Positions 19,941 to 39,023 of a stretch of DNA of 44,281 nt are shown one piece after another; positions within the stretch are counted from its first letter, which is position 1; every line of letters begins with the position of its first letter. The translations under genes were made by a program, and so were the position numbers. The stretch lies in assembly GCA_944386645.1 (NCBI GenBank), contig CALXBW010000013.1:1-44281 (forward strand), written 5' to 3'. The notes beneath the pieces were generated by a model that saw only the letters and a program-made list of their open reading frames with translations, ran no database searches and had not been told where the DNA came from. The DNA comes from an uncultured Clostridia bacterium. GTDB taxonomy: Bacteria; Bacillota; Clostridia; TANB77; CAG-508.

Positions 19941-22001
19941 ATGAAATTTTTAAATAGAGAAATAGAATTAAAAGATGCATTACAAAGAGAGTGGCTAATT
20001 ACAAATGGAATAGGTGGATATTCTTCATCTACAATTGTAGGTGCAAATACAAGAAAATATCATGGACTTCTAGTTGCACCATTAAATCCACCAGCAAACA
20101 GGTATTTAATATTATCAAAAGTAGATGAAAGTATAGATATAGATGGAAAAAAGCATATATTATACACTAATTTATGTAAGGATTATACATCAGAGGGATA
20201 TAAAAACTTAAATTCGTTTGAAAAGGATTATTTGCCAGTTTTTAAATATAATATTCAAGATATTGAAATTACAAAAACAATATGTATGCAACATTCTAGA
20301 AATACAGTATGTATATTATACAAGATTAAAAATAAAGATAAAAAAGTTAAATTTTCAATAACGCCTCTTTTAAATTTTAGAGACTTTCATTCAATAAGTA
20401 GTGGAAAGAAATTTAATTTGAGAGAGATAATAAAAAATAAGAAGGTAAAAGTAGTTATAGATAATAATTCAGTAGTTCCTATATATATGAATTGTTCAGA
20501 AGGAAATTACATCGAACATAAAAATGATTCTTTTAAAAATATGTTTTATATAAAAGAAGATGAAAGAGGATTTTATCCAGAAGAAAATCATTGTATACCA
20601 GGAAGATATGACATCGAAATTAATGAAAATGAAGAAAAAGAGATTACTTTTACATGTTCATTAGAAGAAAATATTGATGAATTAGATGCAAAAGTAGTTA
20701 TAGATAATGAAATAAAAAGAATAAAAAATATGATTAACAAAACAGAAATATTTAAAGATTATCATATTGATAGAAAATCTAAAGATGCAAAACTAATAAA
20801 AGATTTAATTATTGCAACAGATAATTTTATTGTATATAGACCAAGTTTTAGATTACATACTATAATAGCGGGATATCCATGGTTTTTGGATTGGGGAAGA
20901 GATGCTTTAATTGCATTTGAAGGTTTATTATTAGTAACTAAAAGGTATGATATTGCAAAAGAAGTTTTATATACATTTATAAGAAATATAAAATATGGAT
21001 TAGTTCCTAATGGATATTCTGGTTTTGATAGTAGACCCTTATATAATAGTGTAGATAGTTCTCTTCTATTGTTTGAGCAAATAAATAAATATTTGGAATA
21101 TACAAATGATTATAAATTTGTAAAAAATGATATATTTTTAATTTTAGAAAAAATAATAGATTCTTATATAAAGGGAATAGATTTTGACAATAATAATATA
21201 TATTTGGATGATGATAATTTGATTGTAAGTGGAACAGAGACTACACAAAATACTTGGATGGATGCGAAAATTGATGGTGTTGCGATAACACCAAGAAATG
21301 GAAAAGCAGTTGAGATAAATGCTCTATGGTATAATGCATTAAAAACAATGGAAAATCTTAGTTTAGAGTTTAAAGAAAATGAGAAAGTTGAAAAATATAA
21401 AAAAATGGCTTTAGCTACAAAAAAAGCATTTAATAAGAAGTTTTATAATCATCCAAAGAGAAGTCTTTATGATGTGCTAGGTGATGATAAGATAAGACCT
21501 AATCAACTATTTAGTTTATCTTTAACATATCCAGTACTAGATCCTTCTTGTAAAAATGCAGAACATATAATGAAGACTGTAAGAATGAAATTATTAAATA
21601 AGTATGGATTAAAAACTTTAGCTAAAAATGAAAAAGGATATGTGGATGTTTATGAAGGTAGTCCTTATAAAAGAGATTCGTCATACCATCAGGGTATAAC
21701 ATGGCCATGGCTTCTGGGATTATATAGTTCAGCACAAAAAAATATGATAAAATATGAAAAAAGAAAAACAATAAAAAGGCAATTAGAAGATGAGTATAAT
21801 GCGTTTTTATTAAAAATAAAAAATAATTATAAAAAAGCATTATATAATGATGGTGCAATAGGGTCTATATCTGAGATATATGATTCAGTTCCACCATACA
21901 AAGCAAGAGGAACAATTGCACAAGCTTGGAGTGTATCTGAAGTTTTAAAAATTATATTAGAAGAAAAGAAGGTAAATGGCAATGAGAATTCTAGGTATTG
22001 A
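19941..22001 (+). CDS. Glycogen debranching enzyme (amylo-alpha-1,6-glucosidase type)
   Basis: A 686-aa protein of the archaeal/bacterial glycogen debranching family. The N-terminal beta-sandwich domain begins N-G-I-G-G-Y-S-S-S-T and N-T-R-K-Y-H-G-L-L-V. The C-terminal (alpha/alpha)6 catalytic domain has P-W-F-L-D-W-G-R-D-A-L (313-323), G-S-P-Y-K-R-D-S-S-Y-H-Q-G and A-R-G-T-I-A-Q-A-W-S-V-S-E. It cleaves alpha-1,6 branch glucose from limit dextrins. GGAGG precedes ATG. The end overlaps ruvC, so the two are translationally coupled. No other glycogen genes are in the window. Confidence 0.92.
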   Translation: MKFLNREIELKDALQREWLITNGIGGYSSSTIVGANTRKYHGLLVAPLNPPANRYLILSKVDESIDIDGKKHILYTNLCKDYTSEGYKNLNSFEKDYLPVFKYNIQDIEITKTICMQHSRNTVCILYKIKNKDKKVKFSITPLLNFRDFHSISSGKKFNLREIIKNKKVKVVIDNNSVVPIYMNCSEGNYIEHKNDSFKNMFYIKEDERGFYPEENHCIPGRYDIEINENEEKEITFTCSLEENIDELDAKVVIDNEIKRIKNMINKTEIFKDYHIDRKSKDAKLIKDLIIATDNFIVYRPSFRLHTIIAGYPWFLDWGRDALIAFEGLLLVTKRYDIAKEVLYTFIRNIKYGLVPNGYSGFDSRPLYNSVDSSLLLFEQINKYLEYTNDYKFVKNDIFLILEKIIDSYIKGIDFDNNNIYLDDDNLIVSGTETTQNTWMDAKIDGVAITPRNGKAVEINALWYNALKTMENLSLEFKENEKVEKYKKMALATKKAFNKKFYNHPKRSLYDVLGDDKIRPNQLFSLSLTYPVLDPSCKNAEHIMKTVRMKLLNKYGLKTLAKNEKGYVDVYEGSPYKRDSSYHQGITWPWLLGLYSSAQKNMIKYEKRKTIKRQLEDEYNAFLLKIKNNYKKALYNDGAIGSISEIYDSVPPYKARGTIAQAWSVSEVLKIILEEKKVNGNENSRY

Positions 22002-24905: not shown

Positions 24906-25632
24906 ATGATAGAAATAAAAAATGTATCAAAATCTTATGTTAAAGGAAAAAAATCAGTTGACACCTTAGATTTACAAATAAAAAATGGTGAAATTTTTGG
25001 GTTTTTAGGACCAAATCGGAGCAGGGAAGACTACAACTATAAAAATGATAACAGGTATATTAAATCCAGATGAAGGAGATATTTTATTAGATGGAAAAAG
25101 TATTACAAAAACACCAATGGATGCAAAAAGACAATTTGGATATGTGCCAGATAATCCAGATATGTTTGTTAGATTAAAAGGAATAGAGTATTTAAATTTT
25201 ATTGCTGATATATATCAAGTTCCATCTGAGGAAAGAAAAGAAAAAATAGAGCAACTAGCTAAAAAATTTGAAATTTATGATGATTTAGGAAGTACAATAC
25301 AAAGCTATTCACATGGAATGAGACAGAAACTTATAGTTATAAGTGTATTATTACATAATCCAAAAAATTGGATATTAGATGAACCAATGACAGGATTAGA
25401 TCCAAAAGCATCATTTGAATTGAAAGAATTAATGAGAGAACATGCAAAAAATGGTAATACAGTATTTTTCTCAACACATGTATTGGAAGTTGCAGAAAAA
25501 TTATGTGATAGGGTTGGAATTATAAATAGAGGAAAATTAATATTTGTAGGTACATATGAAAAATTAAAGGAACAATTTTCTGAAGATGGAAGTTTAGAAG
25601 AATTATTTTTGGAGATAACAGAAAATGAATAA
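24906..25632 (+). pseudogene. ABC transporter ATPase with a frameshift in the Walker A loop
   Basis: Frame 1 from ATG 24906 (good AGGAGGAG) encodes the usual ATPase start and reaches F-L-G-P-N, then one extra base, most simply C at 25017, throws it out of frame. Removing it gives G-P-N-G-A-G-K-T-T-T and continues into an intact frame to 25632 with S-Y-S-H-G-M-R-Q-K (signature), W-I-L-D-E-P-M-T-G-L-D-P (Walker B) and F-F-S-T-H-V (H-loop). The complete protein would be about 241 aa. All the rest is undamaged and the permease gene overlaps its end, so the shift is recent or a sequencing error. If real, the ATPase is not made. Confidence 0.85.
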
Positions 25633-28100: not shown

Positions 28101-28454
28101 ATGTATAGAAATTGCAAATGTAATAAATGTTATATGAACAGTAATAATAGCTGTGAAGATAATATTTACGAAAATATATGTGAAAATGTTCCAAATACAA
28201 TAAATTCAGATGATTATGATATGTGTGATTGTGGATTCGATGAAGAAGATAATCTATTTCCAAGAAATCCGATGTTTGGTCAAAGTTATGTTCCATGGCA
28301 TACTATGAATAAAACTTTTACACCAGAAGTTGGATTAAGAATGGGAACTATTTTTCCAGAATTAGTATCTCCATATCAACCATGTCAATCCATGGAAGAA
28401 ATAGCATATATAGCATCGACAAATAAAATTGGAAGGGGATGTAATAATGGATAA
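28101..28454 (+). CDS. cotJA: Spore coat-associated protein CotJA
   Basis: A 117-aa protein whose C-terminal half carries the CotJA domain: S-Y-V-P-W-H-T-M-N-K-T-F-T-P-E-V-G-L, M-G-T-I-F-P-E-L-V-S-P-Y. The first ~55 residues are a Cys/Asn/Asp-rich extension (C6, C8, C11 and more) not present in short CotJA proteins. RBS AAAGGAGGAAA. First gene of cotJA-cotJB-cotJC, which encodes an inner-coat complex made in the mother cell. It overlaps cotJB by 8 bp. Confidence 0.9.
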   Translation: MYRNCKCNKCYMNSNNSCEDNIYENICENVPNTINSDDYDMCDCGFDEEDNLFPRNPMFGQSYVPWHTMNKTFTPEVGLRMGTIFPELVSPYQPCQSMEEIAYIASTNKIGRGCNNG

Positions 28455-28758
28455 TAATATAAATGAATGTACAGATAATTGTCAAAGAGATAATTGCTCG
28501 TGTAATAATGACAATATGAGGGAACAAATGTTAATGAAAATAAAAGAATTAAATTTTGCAATAATAGAATTAGGTTTATACTTAGATACACATCCAGATG
28601 ATCAAAGAGCGTTATGTATGCATAGGGAATATTGCAAAAAATTAAAAGAATTAAAAGATAAATATCAAAAAGTTTATGGACCACTAACTATATTCTTTCC
28701 TTGTAATAAGTGGAGATGGTTGGAGGAACCATGGCCATGGGAAGGAGGATGTTATTAA
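28447..28758 (+). CDS. cotJB: Spore coat protein CotJB
   Basis: A 103-aa protein with the CotJB core I-K-E-L-N-F-A-I-I-E-L-G-L-Y-L-D-T-H-P-D-D and the C-terminal signature P-W-P-W-E-G-G. A Cys/Asn-rich stretch (about 7-24) precedes it. ATG 28447 is chosen because GGAAGGGG lies upstream. It ends one base before the cotJC ATG, with GGAGG of its own last codons serving as the cotJC RBS. Confidence 0.92.
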   Translation: MDNNINECTDNCQRDNCSCNNDNMREQMLMKIKELNFAIIELGLYLDTHPDDQRALCMHREYCKKLKELKDKYQKVYGPLTIFFPCNKWRWLEEPWPWEGGCY

Positions 28759-28965
28759 ATGTGGGTTTATAAAAAAATGTTAGAATATCCTATTAGAATA
28801 AAAAATACAAATCCAAAATTAGCTAAATTTATAATATCTCAGTATGGAGGACCAGATGGAGAATTAGCTGCATCACTTAGATATTTATCACAAAGATTTG
28901 CTATGCCAGATGAAAAGGCAAAGGCTATATTAAATGATATAGGAACAGAAGAATATGTACCATAA
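28759..28965 (+). pseudogene. cotJC: cotJC, 5' half (interrupted manganese-catalase coat protein)
   Basis: The frame encodes residues 1-65 of CotJC, nearly identical to the family consensus as I recall it (R-I-K-N-T-N-P-K-L-A-K-F-I, Y-G-G-P-D-G-E-L-A-A-S-L), including metal ligand Glu35. After N-D-I-G-T-E-E it runs into three foreign residues (Y-V-P) and a stop. The true continuation, L-A-H-L-E-M-V-G, is found at 38613. The break falls inside the ExxH ligand motif (Glu65...His68). I mark it as a broken gene, but it is probably a reversibly interrupted one: both halves are intact and join in frame through the shared repeat. Confidence 0.95.
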
Positions 28966-28966
28966 T
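28945..28966 (+). repeat. attL: core direct repeat plus right arm of the element
   Basis: ACAGAAGAAT at 28945-28954 is identical to 38604-38613. It is followed, inside the element, by TGTACCATAAT (28956-28966), the exact complement of the arm at 38596-38606 next to the other core. The codon phase of the core (ACA GAA GAA) is the same in both cotJC halves. Confidence 0.88.
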
Positions 28967-29007
28967 GGTGTAAATAGTTAAAAAATTATTATAAATTTGT
29001 ATTAACG

Positions 29008-29032
29008 AATAGTTGATATAGTATTAACTATT
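29008..29032. promoter_or_regulatory. Operator-like inverted repeat upstream of the aldo/keto reductase
   Basis: AATAGTTGATA (29008-29018) and TATTAACTATT (29022-29032) form an 11-bp dyad with one mismatch and a 3-bp spacer, about 100 bp before the reductase start. I found no convincing -35/-10 pair beside it. Confidence 0.4.
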
Positions 29033-29131
29033 TAGAAATTCCTTATTAATTGCATTAATAATATAATATAAATGTTAAAAATGAAGATAAATATTAAATA
29101 AAGTTAATAAAGAAATAAGGAGGATTTTATT

Positions 29132-29977
29132 ATGAGAACATTAAAATTAAATAATGGTATATCAATGCCAGTTTTGGGATTAGGAACATTTATGATGAAA
29201 CCTAATGAAGCAGAAGAAGCAGTATATAATGCACTAAAAAGCGGTTATAGACTTATTGATACAGCAAATGCTTATATGAATGAAAGAGCTGTAGGAAGAG
29301 GAATAAAGAAAAGTGGAGTACCAAGAGAGGAAATATTTTTGGAGTCAAAATTATGGCCAACAGTTTATACAAAAAATACAGCTGTTGATGAAATGCTTGA
29401 AAGATTAGGAGTAGATTATGTTGATTTATTACTTCTTCATCAACCAGCAGGAGATTATTTAGCAGGTTATAAAACAATGGAGAAGGCAGTTAAAGAAGGT
29501 AAAGTAAAAGCAATAGGATTATCAAATTTCGAAGGAAAGCCTTTAGAAGAAATACTTAATAATTGTGAAATTAAACCTACAGTAATTCAAGTTGAAGCAC
29601 ATCCATATTATCCACAAAATGAATTAAAAGAAATAATAAAAAAAGATGATATTCATATTCAAGCTTGGTATCCACTTGGACATGGTGATAAGAGTTTAAT
29701 TGAAGAACCAATCTTTACAGAACTTGCAAAAAAATATGGAAAATCAAATGCACAAATCATACTAAGATGGCATATACAACAAGGAAATATAGTTATTCCT
29801 GGAAGTAAAAATCCAGAACATATTAAGGATAATGCAAATATATTTGATTTTGAATTAACAGATGATGAAATGAATAGAATAGCAAAAATTAATAAAAATA
29901 CGAGATATTATATTCCAAATCCACAATTAACAGCAAGTTATGCAACAATGGAATTAAATCCTGAAGCAGATGTATAA
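29132..29977 (+). CDS. Aldo/keto reductase
   Basis: A 281-aa NADPH-dependent oxidoreductase with a TIM barrel. The catalytic tetrad is complete: Asp43, Tyr48, Lys73 and His103. Family motifs M-P-V-L-G-L-G-T-F, G-Y-R-L-I-D-T-A-N-A-Y and the cofactor loop V-I-P-G-S-K-N-P-E-H are present. It reduces aldehydes or ketones; the substrate is unknown. AAGGAGG lies 9 bp before ATG. First gene inside the cotJC element, transcribed in the same direction as cotJ. Codon use is like the chromosome. Confidence 0.93.
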   Translation: MRTLKLNNGISMPVLGLGTFMMKPNEAEEAVYNALKSGYRLIDTANAYMNERAVGRGIKKSGVPREEIFLESKLWPTVYTKNTAVDEMLERLGVDYVDLLLLHQPAGDYLAGYKTMEKAVKEGKVKAIGLSNFEGKPLEEILNNCEIKPTVIQVEAHPYYPQNELKEIIKKDDIHIQAWYPLGHGDKSLIEEPIFTELAKKYGKSNAQIILRWHIQQGNIVIPGSKNPEHIKDNANIFDFELTDDEMNRIAKINKNTRYYIPNPQLTASYATMELNPEADV

Positions 29978-30043
29978 GTAGAAGAGTGGGTTATAAGCAT
30001 ACAAGTACATTTATACAATTTTTAAAAATATAGTACTAAAAAT

Positions 30044-30132
30044 GTAGGGGGGCGAACGGTGTTCGCTCGAACCAACAAGGACTTACTAAAGAATAAAATA
30101 TTTTCATCTAGAAAATTGCCTTATAACCCTAC
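30044..30132. repeat. MITE-like repeat family A, copy 2
   Basis: An 89-bp segment with GTAGGG at the left, CCCTAC at the right, and the left-end hairpin GGGCGAAC-GGT-GTTCGCTC. The end ATAACCCTAC matches copy 1 (521-648); the middle differs. Confidence 0.6.
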
Positions 30133-30153
30133 AAGAGCATAAATCAAGTTATC

Positions 30154-30251
30154 AAAAATTAATATATTATTTTATCGGTCTCACATGCTTCGTAAGTATG
30201 AGCTTACGATGTACAACTACCTCGACTGTCAAAAATAATATATTAATTTTT
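30154..30251. repeat. MITE-like repeat family B, copy 2
   Basis: Terminal inverted repeats of 20 bp (30154-30173 with 30232-30251) and the internal GCTTACGATGTACAACTAC shared with copy 1 at 24733-24825. Two substitutions in the left hairpin arm make its stem less perfect than in copy 1. Confidence 0.8.
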
Positions 30252-30274
30252 TTGGCTAATTATAGGTGCAAGCC

Positions 30275-30318
30275 AAAACTATTCATTCTTCACCGCAACC
30301 GAAGGTTGCAGACATAAC
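30275..30318. repeat. Repeat module shared with the right half of family A copy 1
   Basis: AAAACTATTCATTCTTCAC, then CGCAACC-GAA-GGTTGCAG and GACATAAC. The same pieces occur at 565-642, where the TATTCAT array separates them. It lies 12 bp past the merR stop codon, so its small hairpin could help end merR transcription. Confidence 0.6.
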
Positions 30319-30329
30319 TATATAGTTAA

Positions 30330-30734
30330 TTATATATCTTCATCGATATCAACTAGATTACTAATGTATTTTGTTTTTCCACTTAAAACATCATTATAAA
30401 ATCCTTGCTTCCAATCAATATAATCAATACTTTTTTGTAACTCTTGTTGTTTTTTTATTAACTCTTGTTTTTTGATTGCAAGAATTTCTTGCCTTTGAGG
30501 TATTGTTGATTGACCTTTTAAGCATAAATCTAAATATTCCTTCATTTCAGCGATACTCATGCCACAATTTTTTAAACAAGATAGAGAATTAATCCATGCA
30601 ATGTTGTTATCACTAAATACACGATAATTATTTTTATTCCTTTTAACATTAGGTATAAGACCTTCATTACAATAATACTTTAGAGTTTCATAAGGCATTC
30701 CAACTTTTTCACAAGTTTCCTTCATTGAATACAT
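30330..30734 (-). CDS. MerR-family transcriptional regulator
   Basis: A 134-aa regulator. The N-terminal winged helix-turn-helix is typical (T-C-E-K-V-G-M-P-Y-E-T-L-K-Y-Y, then G-L-I-P-N-V-K-R, Y-R-V-F-S-D-N-N), followed by the dimerisation coiled coil (about 80-115). No Cys cluster for metal binding is seen at the C-terminus; this is the subgroup next to oxidoreductase genes. The ATG at 30734 has GGAGG; the GTG-type extension upstream overlaps the RBS. It is divergent from a promoter of MerR type (30807) and from the row of decayed redox genes it presumably once controlled. Confidence 0.88.
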   Translation of the reverse strand: MYSMKETCEKVGMPYETLKYYCNEGLIPNVKRNKNNYRVFSDNNIAWINSLSCLKNCGMSIAEMKEYLDLCLKGQSTIPQRQEILAIKKQELIKKQQELQKSIDYIDWKQGFYNDVLSGKTKYISNLVDIDEDI

Positions 30735-30806
30735 AAAAAAACCTCCATTCAAACAATTAGTACTCTAATAAAAATTTATTTTTTAATATAAAATTAAAAA
30801 AAAGTA

Positions 30807-30837
30807 TTGACCGATAGTTACTACCGACAAATATAAT
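30807..30837 (+). promoter_or_regulatory. MerR-activated promoter with 19-bp spacer
   Basis: TTGACC (30807-30812) and a perfect TATAAT (30832-30837) are 19 bp apart, two more than optimal, with a partial dyad (CCGATAGT / ACTACCGA) in the spacer. This is the standard MerR activation geometry, facing away from the merR gene. Its downstream genes are all broken. Confidence 0.7.
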
Positions 30838-30951
30838 TATAGTGTAGAAAATTAAATAAGTCAATCAAAAATTAATTTAAAAAAAAGAAAGGATGAAAAT
30901 ATTATGAATTGGATATTTAGTAAGAGTAAATAAATATAAGGAGGAATTTAG

Positions 30952-31210
30952 ATGAATAAGGTATTAGTTATTTATTATAGCTTTACAGGTAATAGTAAGT
31001 TGAATTAACAAATTATAGAAATTGAAGAATATAAATAGGAGGATAAAAATATGGGGAAAAAGTTCATCAGATAGTATTGAAGGAAGTATGACAGATATTA
31101 GAAATTCAGCACAAGGAGCAAATATATTAGATGGACTTAGATTGTTTGGTTCAAGTGTTGCATCTAGTAGAAGTGCAATTCAAGATTGGCTATCAGAATT
31201 AGGTTTTTAA
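30952..31210 (+). pseudogene. Flavodoxin, internally deleted
   Basis: ATG 30952 (AAGGAGG upstream) encodes K-V-L-V-I-Y-Y-S-F-T-G-N-S-K, the FMN phosphate-binding start of a flavodoxin, and stops at 31008. From about 31049 another frame encodes the flavodoxin C-terminus (I-W-G-K-S-S-S-D-S-I-E-G-S, then A-N-I-L-D-G-L-R-L and W-L-S-E-L-G-F). The ~100 middle residues are gone. A nine-codon ORF with its own RBS (30904-30933) precedes it and may be the remnant of a further gene. Confidence 0.75.
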
Positions 31211-31220
31211 GGAGTAAGAG

Positions 31221-31391
31221 ATGAAAAAAGTAAAAATAATAGTAGATATTTTGATGACAATATTATTTATCTTGCTTATGTGTAATCAGCTAACTGGAAT
31301 ATTTGCACACGAAGTATTAGGAGTAAGTGTAATTAAAGATAATGATGTAGATTTTATTTTAGCAGTAGGAGGAGGTTCTGTAGTAGATTAA
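31221..31391 (+). pseudogene. Fused fragments: DUF4405-like start and iron alcohol dehydrogenase piece
   Basis: A 56-codon frame. Residues 1-36 look like the start of a DUF4405 membrane protein (a hydrophobic helix ending Q-L-T-G-I-F-A-H-E-V-L-G). Residues 37-56 are an internal piece of an iron-containing alcohol dehydrogenase (V-D-F-I-L-A-V-G-G-G-S-V-V-D, NAD-binding). Downstream, 31392-31430 reads E-I-D-L-P-T-T-L-T-E-I in another frame, like the C-terminal LPTTL block of the same dehydrogenase. Two deletions therefore joined three gene parts. Confidence 0.6.
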
Positions 31392-31421
31392 GGAGATAGA
31401 CTTACCAACAACACTTACTGA

Positions 31422-32252
31422 AATATTGTAGATGAGTATTACAAAGATGGATATGATCAAAATAGTGTATTTACATTACAATCAACATCAAAAAGTATTA
31501 CATCTGCTATTTTAGGAATTGCTATTGATAAAGGATATATAGAAAGTGTAAATGTACCAATATCTAATTATTTTCCACAAATACTAGAGTCTGACAGTGA
31601 ATATAAAAAACAAATTACTATATGGAATTTACTTACTCACACAACAGGATTAGATGTAAGCGATACCGCAAATTGGGATGAATGGTTAGCTTCTGATAAT
31701 TGGGTAGATTATGTATTAGATAGACCTGCAACATCAAGTCCAGGAACAGTATTTAATTATTTTACAGGAAATACACATTTATTATCAGCAATAATACAAC
31801 AAGCAACAGGAAAAACTGCATATGAATTTGGAAAAGAATATCTATTTGATCCACTTGATATTGATAGTGTATAGTGTGGAACAGATCCTCAAGGAATTTC
31901 AGATGGTGGTAATGGATTTGCGATGAATGCATATGATATGGATAAAATTGGAGAGTTATATCTAAATAATGGAGTTTGGAATGGTAAGCAAATAATTTCA
32001 GAACAATGGATTAGAGATTCAACAAGTGTTCAATTTACTAGATCATCGGGATCAGCAAATTACGGATATCAATGGTGGGTAAGAACATTTGGGGAACAAA
32101 ACTATCCTGCATATTTTGCACAAGGACATTGGGGACAATATATTTTTGTAGTACCGGATTTAAAGTTAGTTGTTGTTTTTGCAAGTCATTATGAAGGAAG
32201 TTCAAGTATTTATTGGAGATTAATGAATAATATTGTAAACGCTTGTGATTAA
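31422..32252 (+). pseudogene. Serine hydrolase (beta-lactamase/PBP4* family), N-truncated with an in-frame stop
   Basis: One frame from about 31422 carries the class C-type S-x-x-K motif (S-T-S-K-S), L-L-T-H-T-T-G, Y-F-T-G-N in the Y-x-N position, then TAG at 31872-31874, and continues to 32252 with D-P-Q-G-I-S-D-G-G-N-G-F, Y-G-Y-Q-W-W and A-Q-G-H-W-G-Q-Y. The signal peptide and start are missing. The stop most simply arose from CAG to TAG or from the usual TGG region. The 3' part alone (31923-32252) has no RBS. Confidence 0.85.
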
Positions 32253-32346
32253 ACAATAAAATCACTAAAATTTGAAAAAATTGACAAGGAAAAATATAAA
32301 TAATAAAAATAAAAATGGATAGAATAAATTTTGATGGAGGTATAGT

Positions 32347-32397
32347 GTGAAAAACTTGTTTTTCACATTATTAGCTACAATCGCTGTGGTTATTTAA
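32347..32397 (+). CDS. Short hydrophobic leader ORF upstream of the surface-protein gene
   Basis: GTG 32347 with GATGGAGG 6 bp upstream starts a 16-codon frame (M-K-N-L-F-F-T-L-L-A-T-I-A-V-V-I). It looks like the first residues of a signal peptide. It is either a small membrane peptide, a leader, or the remnant of a secreted protein gene cut just after its start. A small hairpin (GAGCGATAATTAGCTC, 32411-32426) separates it from the next RBS. Confidence 0.35.
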   Translation: MKNLFFTLLATIAVVI

Positions 32398-32440
32398 TAA
32401 ATTTTTGTTAGAGCGATAATTAGCTCGAATGGAGGTTAAA

Positions 32441-33577
32441 ATGAAAAAAACAACAAAATTTATTCTATTTTTTATAGCTATAGCTATATTTACAATAATT
32501 ACACCTAATTTAAGTAATGCTCAAAGGGTTGCAAATAACGAAGAAACTTTAAATAGTGAAGTATCAGCTGCAGATCCAGGAGAAACTATTACATTGCAAA
32601 ATGATATAACAGTTACAAAACCTATAGTAATTGCAAAAGAATTAACAATTGACGGTAATGGTCATAATATTGTAGGTTCTAATGATTGGACATCAACTTC
32701 TGGAAATCAAACAATGTTTACAGCACAATTATCTGATGCTAAGCTTACACTTAAAAATATCAATTTAAGAAATGGTCCTAAATATGGTGTGCAATCTTAT
32801 GACGGAGCAACAGTAATTTTAGATAATGTATCAATATCAGGTTTCAGATATGGTGGTGTACTTGCAAATGGTGGTAAAGTAGAGGTTAGAAATTTACATT
32901 TAGGATTTAATGGAACAAACGAAAATAATGGTATTGAAATAGATAAGGGTGCATCTGCTACTAATAATCCAACATTAACAATGAATGGTGTATTAACATC
33001 TGAATCTAATGAAAATGTAATAAGACCTGCTGAAAATGGACATCTTACAGATTTCACAATAACAAATACCCAAAATACAACAAATAAAGTAGTAGTATCT
33101 GGAAATAAAGTAGTGTTAACAGATTCATCTGATAATGTTATTTCAGAAAGTACAATACCAGATAAAGCAACTCCAAGTGGAGATATTCAAAAACTTATTG
33201 TAACAATAATTACTAATGATAAGACAAATAAGATAACAGTGGATTCAGGAAAAACAATAACAGCTGATTTATTAAAGTCTCATATTGAATTAGAAGAAAA
33301 TTATATAATAGATGGTTTTTATAGAGACTCAAACTATACTACAGAATTTAATTTTGATGATCCAATAAATACAGATACAACTGTTTATGCAAAAATTTCT
33401 AAAGTAGAAACATCTATACCAGAAGAACAACCAGATCAAACACCAGAATCTGAAAATCAGGTGAAAGATGAAACACCAAAAACAGGTGTAGAAAGTCACT
33501 TAGAAATTGCAGTATTAACAATATTGTTAGCAACAGCAGCAATAATTGCTATAAGAAATAAAAATATAAAGGGATAG
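32441..33577 (+). CDS. Sortase-anchored surface protein (beta-helix plus InlB-type repeat)
   Basis: A 378-aa secreted protein. A signal peptide (1-29) is followed by about 200 residues with the repeated short strands of a right-handed parallel beta-helix (pectate-lyase/polymorphic-repeat type: T-I-D-G-N-G-H-N-I, L-K-N-I-N-L-R-N-G, V-I-L-D-N-V-S-I-S-G). About 245-310 resemble one Listeria-Bacteroides InlB B-repeat (G-F-Y-R-D-S-N-Y-T-T-E-F-N-F, then V-Y-A-K-I). An acidic Pro-rich linker leads to T-P-K-T-G (345-349), a membrane helix (356-372) and a positive tail: a cell-wall sorting signal of the (S/P/T)PKTG kind used by class B sortases. A class B sortase gene follows. Confidence 0.85.
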   Translation: MKKTTKFILFFIAIAIFTIITPNLSNAQRVANNEETLNSEVSAADPGETITLQNDITVTKPIVIAKELTIDGNGHNIVGSNDWTSTSGNQTMFTAQLSDAKLTLKNINLRNGPKYGVQSYDGATVILDNVSISGFRYGGVLANGGKVEVRNLHLGFNGTNENNGIEIDKGASATNNPTLTMNGVLTSESNENVIRPAENGHLTDFTITNTQNTTNKVVVSGNKVVLTDSSDNVISESTIPDKATPSGDIQKLIVTIITNDKTNKITVDSGKTITADLLKSHIELEENYIIDGFYRDSNYTTEFNFDDPINTDTTVYAKISKVETSIPEEQPDQTPESENQVKDETPKTGVESHLEIAVLTILLATAAIIAIRNKNIKG

Positions 33578-33600
33578 TCTAAAAAGTCTATCCTTTTATT
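33572..33600 (+). terminator. Intercistronic terminator/attenuator
   Basis: GGATAG (33572-33577) pairs with CTATCC (33588-33593) and is followed by TTTTATTATTA. It overlaps the stop codon of the surface-protein gene and precedes the sortase by only 16 bp, so it probably lowers sortase expression relative to substrate. Confidence 0.5.
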
Positions 33601-33615
33601 ATTAATGGTGAATAT

Positions 33616-34452
33616 ATGAAAAAAAGTAAGATGAGAATTATATATGCATTTTTAATTTTAGTAATTATATTATCTATAATATATATCGTAGAATATATAT
33701 TATTAAAAAAAGAAGTTTTGGAAGAAAGTGAATTATTAAATAATTATAATAAAGTTGAATTTATAGTAAACGATTTTATGAAAAATGAAATTATTTCAAA
33801 TGATTTATTACAAAAAATAGGAATTGCAAGTGGAGAGTATAAACAAAATGTAATTCAAAAAACGGAAAGAATTAGTAAATTAAATAAAATTAGAGAGCAA
33901 AATTCAGATATTGTAGGCTGGTTAGAAATAGAAGGGACAAGTATTAATTATCCAGTATTACAAGGAAATGATGATAAATATTATATGAATCATAATTATA
34001 AAAAACAAAAATCTAAAAATGGTTCAATTTTTTTAACAAGCGAGTATAATTGGGATATTCCAAGTGACAATTTATTGATATTTGGACATAATTTAAATAA
34101 TGGAACAATGTTTCAAGAATTATTAAAATATAGCAATGAAGCATTTTATAAGAAACATCCAATAATTCGTTTTACTACTATGGAAGATGATGCTGAGTAT
34201 GAAATTATTTCTGTTTTTAAGTCGAGAGTTTACTATAAATCTGAAAAAAATGTTTTTAGATATTATTATTTTGTAAATGCTAATAGTGAAGAAGAATATA
34301 ATGAATTTGTTAAAAATGCAAAAAAAGCATCATTATACAATATTGATGCCACAGCTAAATATGGAGAACAATTAATAACATTGTCAACATGTTCATATCA
34401 TGTAAAGGATGGAAGATTTGCTGTTGTAGCTAAAAAAATTGAAAAAAAATAG
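33616..34452 (+). CDS. Class B sortase
   Basis: A 278-aa membrane-anchored transpeptidase with an N-terminal helix (about 6-28) and the SrtB fold. Catalytic residues are His158 (L-I-F-G-H-N), Cys259 (L-S-T-C-S-Y) and Arg267 (D-G-R-F-A-V-V). The G-W-L-E-I-E-G-T-S-I-N-Y-P-V-L-Q block is typical of class B. It attaches proteins to peptidoglycan by their C-terminal sorting signal; the obvious substrate is the T-P-K-T-G protein encoded just upstream. No GGAGG precedes ATG 33616 (only ATGGTGAA), so expression may be low. Confidence 0.92.
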   Translation: MKKSKMRIIYAFLILVIILSIIYIVEYILLKKEVLEESELLNNYNKVEFIVNDFMKNEIISNDLLQKIGIASGEYKQNVIQKTERISKLNKIREQNSDIVGWLEIEGTSINYPVLQGNDDKYYMNHNYKKQKSKNGSIFLTSEYNWDIPSDNLLIFGHNLNNGTMFQELLKYSNEAFYKKHPIIRFTTMEDDAEYEIISVFKSRVYYKSEKNVFRYYYFVNANSEEEYNEFVKNAKKASLYNIDATAKYGEQLITLSTCSYHVKDGRFAVVAKKIEKK

Positions 34453-34475
34453 TATAAATTACTATTTTTTTATTT

Positions 34476-34507
34476 CATGCATACATATAAAAAGAGGTGT
34501 ATGCATG
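34476..34507 (+). promoter_or_regulatory. Hairpin that encloses the RBS and start of the 43-aa gene
   Basis: CATGCATAC (34476-34484) and GTATGCATG (34499-34507) are perfect 9-bp complements. The 14-nt loop contains AAAGAGG and the 3' arm contains the start codon, so the mRNA structure would control initiation. A CATACA sequence (34480-34485) inside it recalls a sigma-E -10, but no matching -35 was found. Confidence 0.5.
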
Positions 34508-34636
34508 ATTATTTATGAATATAAGAGTGATTCTACTATAATTAGAATTGATGATAGAGATATTGTGACTAATGAGGAAAATAAAGAGATATTAGATACA
34601 TTATTGAGCTTAGCTATTAAAAAAATTTCAGAGTAA
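34505..34636 (+). CDS. 43-aa protein upstream of the recombinase; candidate directionality factor
   Basis: A 43-aa acidic protein (I-I-Y-E-Y-K-S-D-S-T-I-I-R-I, then an acidic stretch and a C-terminal helix ending A-I-K-K-I-S-E). AAAGAGG lies 7 bp before ATG. It is 78 bp upstream of the serine recombinase and probably co-transcribed. Large serine recombinases need a small partner (recombination directionality factor) to excise; SPbeta uses the 58-aa SprB. Position and size fit such a role, but the sequence shows no family I recognise. Confidence 0.55.
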   Translation: MIIYEYKSDSTIIRIDDRDIVTNEENKEILDTLLSLAIKKISE

Positions 34637-34714
34637 TCCTAAGAGATTTTTAATTTTATTTGAGCTATACTAAACAAATACACAATGTACGAAGTTAAAA
34701 AGAAAGGAGAAATT

Positions 34715-36322
34715 TTGGAAGAAATAATAGAAAGTTATTCTAACGAAAAATTGTTAGATAATCTAGGAGAATATGCAATGTATTTAAGAAAATCAAGAGC
34801 AGATATAGAAGCTGAGGCAAATGGAGAAGGTGAAACACTTGCAAGACATGAAAATATATTGTTAGATTTAGCAAGAAAAAATAAAATAAAAATAGGAAAA
34901 ATATACAAAGAAATAGTAAGTGGTGAAACAATTGAAGCAAGACCAGAAATGCAAAAATTACTGTCAGATGTAAGAAATGATAGATGGAAAGGTGTACTAG
35001 TTGTTGAAGTAGAAAGATTAGCTCGTGGTGAAACAATGGATCAAGGTATTGTAGCAAAGTCATTCAAAATATCTAATACAAAAATAATTACACCAATGAA
35101 AGTTTATGATCCAAATAATGAATTTGATGAGGAATATTTTGAATTTGGATTATTTATGTCAAGAAGAGAATACAAGGTAATTAATAGAAGATTACAAAGA
35201 GGAAGAATTATGTCAGTAAAAGAAGGAAAATATGTTGGAAGTATAGCACCATTTGGATATGATAGAGTCAAAATAAATGGGGATAAAGGTTATACTTTAA
35301 AAAAAAATACAGAGGCAAATACAGTAAAAATAATGTTTGACTTATATGCTTATGACGACTTATCATTGAATGAAGTAACTAGAAAATTAAATAAAATGGG
35401 ATTAAAGCCAAGAAAAAATGAAGAATGGACAGTTTCTACAGTAAGAGGAATATTAGAAAATCCTGTTTATATAGGAAAAATTAAATGGAATGCTAGAAAA
35501 GAAGTAAAAGTATATAAAAATGAAAAATTAGTAAAGACAAGACCGAGAAATAAAGATTACATATTAATAAATGGATTACACAAACCTATTATTGATGACA
35601 AAACATGGAAGATTGTTTCAGCAAAAAGAAGTCTTAATTCTGCACCAGTAGTACATAATAAAGAAGTACAAAATCCTTTATGTGGTTTAGTAATATGTGC
35701 TAAATGTGGTAAGAAAATGAAAAGAAAGTCTTATTCAAAATATAAAAAAGAACCAATCTTATATTGCGACAATCCTAAATGTGATAATATAAGTTCAAAA
35801 ATTTATTATGTAGAAGAAAAAGTTTTAGAGGGATTAAAAAAGTGGGGAGAACAATATAAATTTAATTATCAAAAGTATTTAGAAAAAATAAAGAATAATA
35901 AAATAGAATCTATTGAACAAACAATTATATCTTTGGAACATGAATGTAAAAAAGAAAATAATAAATTATTAAGTATATTTAATTTCCTAGAAGATGGAAC
36001 TTATACAAAAGATATGTTTAAAGCAAGGAAAAAATCGATATTACAAAATATAGAAAAAATTAATGATTCAATTAAAGAATATAAAGAAAAATTGGAAAAA
36101 GAGAAAAAAATGAATAAGAAAAAAGAATTGTTAGTACCTAAAATTGATAATCTTTTTGATATATATGATTTATTAAAAACACCAGAAGAAAAAAATTTTC
36201 TGTTGAAAACTGTATTGAATAAAGTTACTTATTTAAAAACAGAAAAAGCAATAAGAAAGGATTCAGATCCAACAAATTTTATTATAAATTTATATCCTAA
36301 AATTAATAGTTTGAAGTTATAA
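34715..36322 (+). CDS. Large serine recombinase (SprA-like integrase/excisionase)
   Basis: A 535-aa recombinase of the phage integrase type. The resolvase domain has Y-L-R-K-S-R with nucleophile Ser27 and V-E-R-L-A-R-G-E. The recombinase domain includes I-A-P-F-G-Y and V-R-G-I-L-E-N-P-V-Y-I-G. The zinc ribbon has Cys328, Cys331, Cys351 and Cys356, followed by a coiled coil (about 400-470). This order, the extra N-terminal lead before the resolvase domain, and the length match SprA of SPbeta, which excises the phage from spsM in sporulating Bacillus. TTG 34715 is preferred (AGAAAGGAG at 5 bp); in-frame ATG 34685 (545 aa, as SprA) has no RBS. It lies inside the cotJC element and most likely acts on its attL and attR. 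Confidence 0.93.
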   Translation: MEEIIESYSNEKLLDNLGEYAMYLRKSRADIEAEANGEGETLARHENILLDLARKNKIKIGKIYKEIVSGETIEARPEMQKLLSDVRNDRWKGVLVVEVERLARGETMDQGIVAKSFKISNTKIITPMKVYDPNNEFDEEYFEFGLFMSRREYKVINRRLQRGRIMSVKEGKYVGSIAPFGYDRVKINGDKGYTLKKNTEANTVKIMFDLYAYDDLSLNEVTRKLNKMGLKPRKNEEWTVSTVRGILENPVYIGKIKWNARKEVKVYKNEKLVKTRPRNKDYILINGLHKPIIDDKTWKIVSAKRSLNSAPVVHNKEVQNPLCGLVICAKCGKKMKRKSYSKYKKEPILYCDNPKCDNISSKIYYVEEKVLEGLKKWGEQYKFNYQKYLEKIKNNKIESIEQTIISLEHECKKENNKLLSIFNFLEDGTYTKDMFKARKKSILQNIEKINDSIKEYKEKLEKEKKMNKKKELLVPKIDNLFDIYDLLKTPEEKNFLLKTVLNKVTYLKTEKAIRKDSDPTNFIINLYPKINSLKL

Positions 36323-36334
36323 TATCCAATTGGC

Positions 36335-36379
36335 AAAAAGTTCATTAGGTAAATTAATTACACCTTGTGAACTTTTTTT
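36335..36379 (+). terminator. Rho-independent terminator after the recombinase
   Basis: A 10-bp stem (36335-36344 with 36368-36377) with an inner AGGT/ACCT pairing, followed by T residues. Confidence 0.75.
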
Positions 36380-36426
36380 AGTATGTTAACTATTTTACAG
36401 TCAACAGAAGAAAAAACAAAAAAATA

Positions 36427-36516
36427 TTGACATGATGTCAGAATTGTGATATATAACAATTAAAAGTGACACGATGTCAGAAAAATGATATATAATAATT
36501 GACTGACATTGTGTCA
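36427..36516 (+). promoter_or_regulatory. Two tandem promoters with three TGACA-N3-TGTCA operators
   Basis: Palindromes TGACATGATGTCA (36428-36440), TGACACGATGTCA (36467-36479) and TGACATTGTGTCA (36504-36516) are 39 and 37 bp apart. The first two overlap -35 boxes, TTGACA (36427-36432) and GTGACA (36466-36471), each followed after exactly 17 bp by TATATA (36450-36455 and 36489-36494). A 39-bp promoter/operator unit was therefore duplicated. The third lies just before the tetR RBS. The TetR protein encoded next is the natural ligand, implying autorepression. Confidence 0.85.
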
Positions 36517-36542
36517 ATATTATAAATGAAAAGGAGAAAAAT

Positions 36543-37151
36543 ATGGCAAAAGAAATAGTTGATATAAGAAGAGAAGAAATTATAAATGCTTGTGAAAAGC
36601 TTTATGAAAATAACAATTTTAAAGATATAACGATAAAAAACATAGGGGAAGAAACAACATTTTCTCGTACATCAATATATAATTATTTTCATACAAAAGA
36701 AGAGATATTTTTAGCACTTTTTCAAAGAGAATATGAAAGATGGATAGATGAATTAGAAGAAATGTATGACAAAAATTCTACAATGACAAAAGAAATGTTT
36801 GCAGATAAATTGGCACATACAATAGAAAAAAGAAAAAATTTATTAAAATTACTTTCAATGAATATGTATGATATGGAAGATAATAGTAGAATTGAAAGAT
36901 TAGTAGAATTTAAAATGGCTTATGGAACAGCAATAAAGACTGTAAAAAAATGCCTTGACAAGTATTTTGATGATATGACAGAAGAAGAAAAGAAAGACTT
37001 TATATTTTCATTCTTTCCATTTATGTATGGAATATATCCATATACATTTGTAACAGATAAACAAAAAGAAGCAATGTCAAAAGCAGGAGTTCCATTTGAA
37101 TATTTAACAATCTATAATATTACATATAAAGGAATTTTAAAATTATTATAA
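36543..37151 (+). CDS. TetR/AcrR-family repressor
   Basis: A 202-aa regulator. Residues 9-55 form the TetR DNA-binding domain (I-I-N-A-C-E-K-L, then F-S-R-T-S-I-Y-N-Y-F-H-T-K-E-E-I-F recognition helix and hinge); the rest is the helical ligand-binding and dimer domain. AAAGGAG precedes ATG. Three palindromic operators lie directly upstream. The downstream monooxygenase gene starts 25 bp after its stop, so both are in the same regulon and the inducer is probably a substrate of that enzyme. Confidence 0.92.
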   Translation: MAKEIVDIRREEIINACEKLYENNNFKDITIKNIGEETTFSRTSIYNYFHTKEEIFLALFQREYERWIDELEEMYDKNSTMTKEMFADKLAHTIEKRKNLLKLLSMNMYDMEDNSRIERLVEFKMAYGTAIKTVKKCLDKYFDDMTEEEKKDFIFSFFPFMYGIYPYTFVTDKQKEAMSKAGVPFEYLTIYNITYKGILKLL

Positions 37152-37175
37152 GTGATAAATAAAGGAGGTTTTATT

Positions 37176-37469
37176 ATGAGTTTAACAATAAATATTTATT
37201 ATACAGGAGAAAATGGAGCAGCAAAAAAATTTGCAGAGGAAATGGTAGAAAAAGGAGTTGTAGACAGAGTAAGAGCTGAAAAAGGAAATAAAAAATATGA
37301 ATATTTTTTTCCAATGGATGACCAAGAAACTGTTTTATTAATAGATAGATGGGAAAGCGAGGAAGCATTAGATGAACATCATAAATCTCCAATGATGAAA
37401 GAAATAGCAGATTTAAGAGTAAAATATCATCTTCACATGAGAGTAGAGCAGTTTGTTGAAAGAAAATAA
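37176..37469 (+). CDS. Antibiotic biosynthesis monooxygenase (ABM) domain protein
   Basis: A 97-aa single-domain ferredoxin-like protein of the quinol/antibiotic monooxygenase superfamily: strand L-T-I-N-I-Y-Y-T, helix A-A-K-K-F-A-E-E-M, then K-Y-E-Y-F-F-P, L-L-I-D-R-W-E-S-E-E-A-L-D-E-H-H-K-S and the final M-R-V-E-Q-F. Such proteins act without cofactors on quinols or reactive small molecules. AAAGGAGG lies 9 bp before ATG 37176; an ATG-like start at 37152 overlaps the tetR stop and has no RBS. Confidence 0.85.
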   Translation: MSLTINIYYTGENGAAKKFAEEMVEKGVVDRVRAEKGNKKYEYFFPMDDQETVLLIDRWESEEALDEHHKSPMMKEIADLRVKYHLHMRVEQFVERK

Positions 37470-37567
37470 TTAAATTATATGTTTGAATAATGTAAAATAG
37501 AAAAATTATAGCATTAACTTTTAGTAAATACCACATAAACTAATTTGAAATGGCATAATAAATTAAA

Positions 37568-37598
37568 TATTTTATAATATCAATGATATTATAAAATA
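37568..37598 (+). promoter_or_regulatory. 14-bp palindrome over the -10 region of the DUF362 gene
   Basis: 37568-37581 and 37585-37598 are perfect complements with a 3-nt AAT centre. A -35-like TTGAAA (37545-37550) lies 17 bp before the left end, so the -10 (TATTTT) would be inside the left arm. It could be an operator or a 5' mRNA hairpin just ahead of GAAAGGAA. Confidence 0.45.
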
Positions 37599-37621
37599 AA
37601 AAATGAAAGGAACGATTAAAA

Positions 37622-38506
37622 ATGGAAAAAGCAAAAGTATATTTTTGTAAAGAAATAACACCAGAAAACATTGTAAAAATGTTCAAAACATTAGGTAAAG
37701 AATTACCAGGAAAAGTTGCAGTAAAAATGCATTCAGGAGAAAGAGGAAATAAAAACTATTTAAGACCAGAATTTGTAAAAAAGATGATAGATTATGTTGA
37801 TGGAACAGTTGTAGAATGTAACACAGCTTATGAGGGTGCAAGAAATTACACAGAAAAACATTTAAAACTAATCAAGGAACATGAATGGGATAAATACTTT
37901 AAATTTGATCTAATGGATGCAGAAGGACCAGATTTAGCACTAGATGTTCCAAATGGAAAGATATTAAAGAAAAACTATGTTGGAAAAAATTTAGCACAAT
38001 ATGATTCAATGCTTGTATTATCACATTTCAAAGGACATGCAATGGGAGGATATGGTGGAGCATTGAAGCAATTATCAATTGGTTGTGGTTCATCAGCAGG
38101 AAAAACTTTAATTCATACAGCAGGAGTATCAAATAAACAAACTAAATTATTCGATAATTTACCAGAGCAAGATAGATTCTTGGAAGCAATGGCAGATGCA
38201 GCATCATCAGTAGTAGCACATTTTAAAGGAAATATGGCGTTTATTAATGTTATGAAAAATATTTCAAAAGATTGCGATTGTGATGGAAATGCATCAGCAC
38301 CATGTATGAAAGATATTGGAATATTATCATCTATTGACCCAATTGCAATAGATCAAGCATGTTTAGATCTTGTATATAATTCAGAAGATCCTGGAAAAGA
38401 TATTTTAATAAAGAGAATAGAATCTCTACATGGAGTTCATACAATAGAAGCAGCAGCTGAACTTGGATTTGGAACAAGGGAATATGAATTAATAAATGTA
38501 GATTAA
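37622..38506 (+). CDS. DUF362 domain protein
   Basis: A 294-aa soluble protein of the DUF362 family: V-A-V-K-M-H-S-G-E-R-G, N-T-A-Y-E-G-A-R near 75-83, L-S-H-F-K-G-H-A-M-G-G-Y-G-G-A-L-K-Q-L near 140, and D-P-I-A-I-D-Q-A-C near 240. Many members carry 4Fe-4S ferredoxin motifs at the C-terminus; this one lacks them and has only a short Cys cluster (218, 220, 228). It may have a redox or metallocluster role, which is not established. RBS GAAAGGAA. Last gene of the element before attR. Confidence 0.88.
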   Translation: MEKAKVYFCKEITPENIVKMFKTLGKELPGKVAVKMHSGERGNKNYLRPEFVKKMIDYVDGTVVECNTAYEGARNYTEKHLKLIKEHEWDKYFKFDLMDAEGPDLALDVPNGKILKKNYVGKNLAQYDSMLVLSHFKGHAMGGYGGALKQLSIGCGSSAGKTLIHTAGVSNKQTKLFDNLPEQDRFLEAMADAASSVVAHFKGNMAFINVMKNISKDCDCDGNASAPCMKDIGILSSIDPIAIDQACLDLVYNSEDPGKDILIKRIESLHGVHTIEAAAELGFGTREYELINVD

Positions 38507-38512
38507 GATTAC

Positions 38513-38552
38513 AAAATGGTATGGGAAAGCTGGAAACTCATACCATTTTTTT
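38513..38552 (+). terminator. Rho-independent terminator near the right end of the element
   Basis: An 11-bp stem (38513-38523 with 38539-38549) followed by a T run. It would also stop cargo transcription from entering the cotJC 3' half. Confidence 0.8.
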
Positions 38553-38595
38553 AGCTATTTTACAGTAAATATCTTTAATGTTTTCAATTGATATC

Positions 38596-38613
38596 ATTAT
38601 GGTACAGAAGAAT
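38596..38613 (+). repeat. attR: left arm plus core direct repeat
   Basis: ATTATGGTACA (38596-38606) overlaps the core ACAGAAGAAT (38604-38613). The arm complements the one beside attL (28956-28966). In the excised circle the arms would flank the 8-bp spacer GAAGAATA symmetrically. Confidence 0.88.
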
Positions 38614-39023
38614 TAGCTCACTTAGAAATGGTTGGAACAATAGTGCATCAATTGACAAAAGGAGCATCAATAGAAGAAATAAAAGCAGCTGGATTGGGAG
38701 CATATTATACAGATCATGGTGTAGATGTATATCCACAAGCTGCATCTGGAGTGCCTTTTAATGCTGCAGTATTAGCATGTAAGGGTGACCCAATTGCAAA
38801 CTTGCAAGAAGATTTAGCAGCGGAACAAAAAGCAAGAGCAACATATGAAAAATTAATAGATTTATGTCATGATGAACCAGATATAATAGATCCATTAAGA
38901 TTCTTAAGAGAAAGAGAAGTAGTTCATTTTCAAAGATTTGGAGAAGCATTGAGGGGTATACAAGATAAATTGGCAGATAAAAAGTATTATATGAATAATT
39001 GTAATAATCCTTGTATGAATTAA
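38604..39023 (+). pseudogene. cotJC: cotJC, 3' half
   Basis: From the core repeat the frame encodes residues 63-201 of CotJC and stops at TAA 39023: T-E-E-L-A-H-L-E-M-V-G-T-I-V, A-A-G-L-G-A-Y-Y-T-D-H-G, A-A-E-Q-K-A-R (ligand candidate Glu136) and R-E-R-E-V-V-H-F-Q-R-F-G-E (ligand candidate His170). There is no RBS or start at its beginning; the first in-frame ATG (38628) has no Shine-Dalgarno, so it is not translated on its own. No damaging mutation is seen, which argues that the half is still under selection. A strong terminator follows. Confidence 0.95.

Follow-up and report, generated by a model that had tools for sequence, protein, structure and literature searches.

A serine-integrase element interrupts the spore coat gene cotJC at codon 65 in an uncultured Clostridia bacterium and is predicted to be excised, likely during sporulation

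In a 44,281-nucleotide stretch of DNA from an uncultured Clostridia bacterium (contig CALXBW010000013.1 of assembly GCA_944386645.1; hereafter the window), the spore coat gene cotJC is present as two undamaged halves around a 9,659-bp intervening element, with an identical repeat in the same codon phase at both breakpoints. A first-pass annotation of the window had described cotJC as split by a 9.66-kb recombinase-bearing element, and the undamaged halves, the integrase gene and the repeat spacing bear this description out. The integrase element lies at codon 65 of the only copy of cotJC that was found, and we put at roughly 0.7 the probability that precise excision restores the gene, likely in the mother cell during sporulation. 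Of the readings considered, developmental rebuilding is the most probable prediction from the sequence data. The features counted for developmental use are the coat-gene target, the intact exons beside decayed cargo, the apparent purifying selection between the two split congeners, and, upstream of the integrase operon, a CATA box.

Exon 1 of cotJC (28759..28952, plus strand) begins with the ATG at 28759, comprises codons 1-64 and the GA of codon 65, and matches positions 1-66 of PF05067. Exon 2 (38610..39023, plus strand) comprises codons 65-201 and the stop, matches positions 62-197 of the same family, and is open for 137 codons from the GA. The 10-bp core ACAGAAGAAT occurs at 28945..28954 and again at 38604..38613 (both plus strand), with the predicted crossover dinucleotide GA at 28951-28952 and 38610-38611, respectively; the identical, in-phase repeat reported in the first-pass annotation therefore stands, except that its left copy starts at 28945 and not at 28944. 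The repeat spacing places the intervening element at 28953..38611. When the flanks were joined at the repeat by script, the proposed frame of 201 codons was recovered and the joint reads NDIGTEELAHLE, which is the family sequence.

Inside the element, the left arm TGTACCATAATG (attL side, 28956..28967) and the right arm CATTATGGTACA (attR side, 38595..38606) are exact 12-base reverse complements of each other, and joining the element ends gives a palindrome centred on GA. The attachment site attP of the element is predicted to be palindromic with a central crossover dinucleotide GA, and because the palindrome is centred on GA, crossover would fall inside codon 65. Across the breakpoints of relatives, GA is the only pair of bases that is always common to both core copies; at locus L059 (genome G030) the copies share GA alone at the joint, the right core having GAG and the left core GAA. 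The consensus arms at this break, designated site A, are TGATAAC..TGGTAC and its mirror.

The genes upstream in the cotJ operon are cotJA (28101-28454, plus strand; PF11007) and cotJB (28429-28758, plus strand; PF12652), and spoVT was found beyond them, which supports a mother-cell coat gene as the target, as had been proposed. The genome (G000; 1.69 Mb, 72 contigs, 96.86% complete) also contains spoIVA elsewhere as well as sigma-E-like and sigma-K-like genes. A profile search with PF05067 gave the two halves alone, and no second intact cotJC that would make the split copy dispensable was found in G000.

Comparison with relatives revealed the same break in other genera, and the one-locus scope of the first-pass annotation was too narrow, as the same codon is broken in other loci and there are up to three more break sites. 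In a set of 56 genomes, this one included, cotJC is intact in 20, contiguous with a CGG frame shift in 7, interrupted in 15 and represented by weak distant matches in 5, with none in the remaining 9. The interrupted copies have both halves on one contig in six genomes (G000, G002, G006, G011, G027, G029), halves on two contigs in four (G015, G018, G030, G035), and one visible half in five (G004, G008, G019, G020, G026). An additional partial second piece accompanies 3 of the 20 intact copies (G009, G022, G023).

GTDB contigs were scanned with the recombinase, and the best 80 of 155 relatives were taken as loci, among them the isolates Anaeromonas frigoriresistens, Hominisplanchenecus faecis, Clostridium methylpentosum DSM 5476 and Lachnotalea glycerini DSM 28816 (L139). 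A cotJC exon was found in 55 of the 80 loci and the site-A core (codon 65) in 54. The site-A exons are in phase in 36/36 left and 62/62 right cases, a count that used core patterns written after the sequences had been viewed, left out seven loci beforehand (six contiguous CGG-shifted copies and one contig start), and holds the same DNA twice for L036/L070, L037/L073 and L039/L076. All right exons (codons 65-101) are free of stops (55/55), as are 30 of 32 left exons, the exceptions being L061, which has a CGG shift, and L096, in which there is a second break site. The integrase lies no more than 300 bp from the core in 61 of the 76 loci having both. Complete site-A elements number 15 distinct cases including the window and span 3.3-10.1 kb, in a count for which the flanks were 10 kb and longer elements would escape; the site-A element of G056 is ~19.6 kb. 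The cargo is modular, with cargo types of the window recurring in other loci. In L061 the cotJC element, 4.2 kb long, includes an AbiL-like pair of genes for an AAA ATPase and RloB (L061:7737-9707), which is likely defence cargo.

Four break sites were identified in cotJC: A (codon 65), B (~101), C (~137) and D (~26-30). At site B, 14 left halves and 6 right halves were found, and 4 loci hold both. At site C a joint is visible for 9 left halves and 7 right halves, and 3 distinct loci hold both. Site D is represented by right halves only, 4 of which adjoin a second recombinase (L089, L099, L134, L139); in the cultured L. glycerini DSM 28816 (L139) the elements are at codons ~26 and 65. Wherever a site has both halves, the joint is in frame as judged by eye. 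Some genomes carry two or three breaks; G002 has elements at A and C, and L062 has the edges of A, B and C. It is possible, although we lean slightly away from this wider claim, that cotJC across Clostridia contains DNA introns, that is, integrase elements at up to four fixed codons (~28, 65, 101, 137), each removed in the mother cell by its own recombinase. Eight targets were scanned among the 25 loci without cotJC; five of these loci break a LysM/GH18 or GH18 gene (L092, L111, L123, L125, L140) and three break an asparagine synthase gene (L103, L120, L122). LysM-GH18 proteins (YaaH/SleL) and AsnO/YisO are products of spore-stage genes of B. subtilis.

The split exons of G000 were compared with those of its congener G002, which is also split at site A. 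Over 134 codons there are 31 synonymous and 9 non-synonymous differences and no stop, while neutral simulations (n=2,000) gave a mean of 30.5 non-synonymous differences with a minimum of 22, and stops in 96.5% of runs. The synonymous divergence (dS) between the two genomes is 0.32, 0.58, 0.65 and 0.70 for four shared element genes and 0.44-0.50 for four flanking host genes. This constraint and these dS values fit a long-resident element.

The integrase gene of the window (34685..36322, plus strand) encodes a large serine integrase of 545 amino acids, in which the Resolvase (PF00239), Recombinase (PF07508) and zinc-ribbon (PF13408) domains are all above cut-offs and which matches phrog_95, an integrase family. 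Directly upstream is a 43-codon open reading frame (ORF; 34505..34636, plus strand), a predicted candidate for the recombination directionality factor, which has no match in PHROGs or NCBIfam and has relatives at the same place, before the integrase, in 28 of 76 loci. A box, GCATACATAT, and a 12-bp hairpin lie at 34479..34509 (plus strand); the box forms one arm of the hairpin (-15.7 kcal/mol, z -3.56, z-scores being against mononucleotide shuffles), which spans both the ribosome-binding site and the start codon of the small ORF. The tetramer CATA is found 12-32 bases upstream of the small ORF in 20/23 loci and of other gene starts in 24/256, figures that are not convertible to a probability since the 23 loci are related. 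A conserved CATA, judged by eye, is also present upstream of the cotJ operon itself. A second exact GCATACATAT occurs in the window on the minus strand at 20280-20289.

In the mechanism that we propose, recombination between the element ends would excise the element precisely and rebuild cotJC. The product of the 43-codon ORF would be the directionality factor that switches the integrase to excision, the CATA box before it may be a mother-cell promoter of the sigma-E/K type, and the hairpin over its start codon could silence read-through transcripts and so restrict excision to sporulation. Since the mother cell dies, the element would be retained in the spore, as skin is. The family is still mobile, with phages and small islands repeatedly entering the same codon, and some insertions stay as small resident elements with changing cargo.

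Viral sequences bear on this mobility. A 44-base attP pattern built from the consensus arms matches 11 viral contigs with GA at the centre, and in 10 of the 11 the aligned end of an integrase homologue is 11-63 bp away, with none in the stretch covered for L222. These matches resemble the site as it would stand in phages that have not integrated. A cotJC exon was found in 16 of 72 viral loci, in all cases at site A. A 19.4-kb stretch that is 99.4% identical in G057:C40 (L063/L242) and G056:C13 (L243), with L244 also involved, is integrated in cotJC in G056 and ends in G057 at an attP-like joint to another element's arm. G057:C40 was considered as a closed circle proving excision, which was rejected because its ends do not overlap and the arm that follows the joint is the left end of another element; it is perhaps a tandem or a hybrid.

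The principal alternative is that these are ordinary site-specific mobile elements for which cotJC is an attachment site (attB) in a dispensable gene, so that insertion inactivates cotJC, excision occurs only on moving, and there is no developmental role. We consider this unlikely, but it is the rival that survives best. It is favoured by the phage relatives that carry attP, by the 16 of 72 viral loci with a cotJC exon, and by horizontal movement, as seen in L061/L064 and in L141/L148, where the integrases are 97.0% alike and the cotJC exons 76% alike. Such integrases also often aim at one conserved gene, according to parts of PMC10083194, and the parts of PMC11222575 drawn on here describe a mild phenotype of the C. 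difficile cotJC mutant. Against it stand the 55/55 stop-free right exons, the strong constraint between the two split congeners, the small elements of the window and L061, in which no phage or transfer gene was found in the scans made, and the integrase relatives that break LysM-GH18 genes, which are spore genes.

Several observations weigh against developmental rebuilding as well. Serine-integrase insertion is conservative and in-frame repair is automatic for this class of enzyme, so in-frame restoration carries little weight as an argument for developmental use; of the developmental rearrangement claimed in the first-pass annotation, the precise recombinase insertion, the att-like ends and the in-frame rejoining hold, but this argument does not carry it. 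By the comparisons above, the elements move between hosts horizontally, and because they do, the exons may be intact through the youth of the insertions. The integrase of G002 is 89.5% identical to that of L061 and 76% to that of G000, and the outer arms of G000 and G002 differ, which suggests that their elements arose by replacement or separate entry. The idea that the two elements are one inherited insertion is weakened by these identities and arms, and because they point to separate entry, the exon constraint may partly predate insertion. The dS between most other pairs is near saturation and too high to date insertions. A rejoined attB was not found in the G000 assembly, and no excision, circle or junction was seen in the sequences analysed. 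With respect to the promoter, GCATACATAT is not over-represented in the window (9 occurrences and 6.5 expected, with one mismatch), no similar box was seen before spoIVA, and only 11 of the 23 loci show a clear hairpin, with z at or below -2.0. The window integrase is 2.3 kb from the nearest core, unlike in most loci. Finally, loss of cotJC is mild in C. difficile (PMC11222575, in part).

Gene fission, in which each half would be translated on its own and the two products would form a functional CotJC with no DNA rearrangement, is very improbable. Both halves are open and have start codons (28759 and 38628), but the first ATG of the right half is codon 71, so that codons 65-70 would be outside the protein and yet are kept in 62/62 right exons, and the breaks occur at four different places. 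An assembly chimera of two unrelated places is more improbable still: although this is a draft of 72 contigs, the break falls at the same bases in other assemblies, which makes misassembly unlikely; both site-A cores are on one contig in 15 distinct loci, several of them from separate assemblies, and core and arms match each other.

The remaining genes of the element are cargo. From the left end these are an aldo/keto reductase (29132..29977, plus strand; PF00248) with a relative in the site-A element of L071, a MerR-family regulator (30330..30752, minus strand; PF13411) with a relative in L062, and gene debris (30753..32252, plus strand) that ends in a stop-ridden C-terminal remnant of the beta-lactamase-fold family PF00144 (positions 224-312 of 329), with in-frame stops upstream of the matched part. 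The cotJC exons are intact while this neighbouring cargo has decayed. An LPXTG-type surface protein (32429..33577, plus strand; weak sub-cut-off matches to Flg_new and EF0750_LPXTG) and a class B sortase (33616..34452, plus strand; PF04203; TIGR03064 at 151 bits with a cut-off of 153.75) follow, both with relatives in L070, L075 and L082. Beyond the integrase are a TetR-family regulator (36543..37151, plus strand; PF00440, PF17929), an antibiotic-biosynthesis-monooxygenase-fold protein (37152..37469, plus strand; PF03992) and a DUF362 protein (37622..38506, plus strand; PF04015) with relatives in the site-A elements of L053 and L073. No phage structural family was found among 10 window ORFs (9 inside the element) in a Pfam scan, and a PHROGs scan of 5 proteins gave one integrase, the others being unmatched or of unknown function; by these scans the element shows none of the structural phage genes of a complete prophage. 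An Rfam scan gave a single tRNA, outside the element. Two further, distant serine recombinases are present in the genome (G000:C10:4158-5654 and G000:C3:89328-90839; 27% and 25% identity).

In this clade the triplet CGG seems to signal a +1 frameshift: CGGN would be decoded as a single residue, in most cases at positions where glycine is expected. As a codon CGG is almost missing: it accounts for 1 of 11,057 codons in the window, 9 of 24,625 and 5 of 15,394 in two sets of relatives, and 444 of 39,461 codons in distant Clostridia. Of the 14 cases in the relatives, 12 are within 25 codons of a stop, and the single CGG of the window is not. CGG is treated as reassigned or unassigned in some Firmicutes (PMC8629427, in part). 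The sigma-E-like and sigma-K-like genes of G000 each need a CGG shift (G000:C4:23393-24050, L245; G000:C5:70888-71569, L246), as does the ABC ATPase at window position 25017; 84 such candidates were listed, not all of them genuine. Some copies of cotJC, contiguous or split, have one extra base that creates an in-frame CGG, mostly at sites A or D: L033, L034, L035, L057 and L058 (codons 62-67), L061 (codon 62), L052, L043 and L023 (codon 30), and L047 (codons 34 and 62, codon 34 being outside these sites). Three cotJC-type recombinase genes have a CGG shift at one position (L054:14524, L104:10988, L114 near 10984). CGG insertion as a protection of attB was considered and rejected: L061 has both CGG and an element, L047 has CGG elsewhere in cotJC, and other genes too have CGG shifts.

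Should excision be confirmed, the programmed rebuilding of genes would recur around a single coat gene across Clostridia and would not be a rarity limited to a few genes of Bacillus and Clostridium, and sporulation rebuilding would include several elements per gene. The family provides many natural integrase/attP/attB sets that differ in sequence and have one common target. The question of why mobile elements come to reside in mother-cell genes, in which excision is free for the germ line, becomes testable, and cultured hosts such as Lachnotalea glycerini DSM 28816 (L139) allow direct testing.

Among known systems, skin in sigK (B. subtilis; skinCd in C. difficile) shares with the cotJC element a serine-recombinase element in a mother-cell gene, a short core repeat, in-frame rebuilding and a small partner gene. 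According to sections of PMC5025042, skinCd has a constitutive recombinase and a directionality factor, CD1234, under sigma-E and SpoIIID control. The cotJC element differs in that its target belongs to the coat/manganese-catalase family and that of skin is a regulator, in that its candidate factor directly precedes the recombinase, and in that excision is only predicted here. The gin element in gerE of B. cereus ATCC10987 is likewise a small non-phage element with a serine recombinase and a rebuilt coat-regulator gene; it is described in portions of PMC5595907 as 28.6 kb long, with a 9-bp core and three recombinases, inside the transcription factor gene gerE, and the main text of that paper does not mention cotJC. 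SPbeta/spsM, vfbin/spoVFB, vrin/spoVR and yin/yabG are also elements in sporulation genes whose excision rebuilds the gene or is predicted to do so (parts of PMC4191935 and PMC10747680); as described there each gene has one site, whereas cotJC is broken at four sites and can hold as many as three elements simultaneously. The attR of the phi027 prophage of C. difficile R20291 adjoins the cotJC-like CDR20291_1465, but this gene is described, in the parts of PMC11222575 concerned, as downstream of attR and not interrupted. Large serine integrases with unique target genes likewise enter one conserved gene, and the main-text parts of PMC10083194 name no spore coat or catalase gene as a target. The main texts of the open-access literature searched (subscription papers and supplements excluded) yielded no description of cotJC being interrupted. 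The cotJC system has the features of the skin type: a sporulation gene is interrupted, a site-specific recombinase is encoded, core repeats allow in-frame rebuilding, and no other copy of the gene was found. We rate the cotJC elements as a further kind of skin-type sporulation-gene rearrangement.

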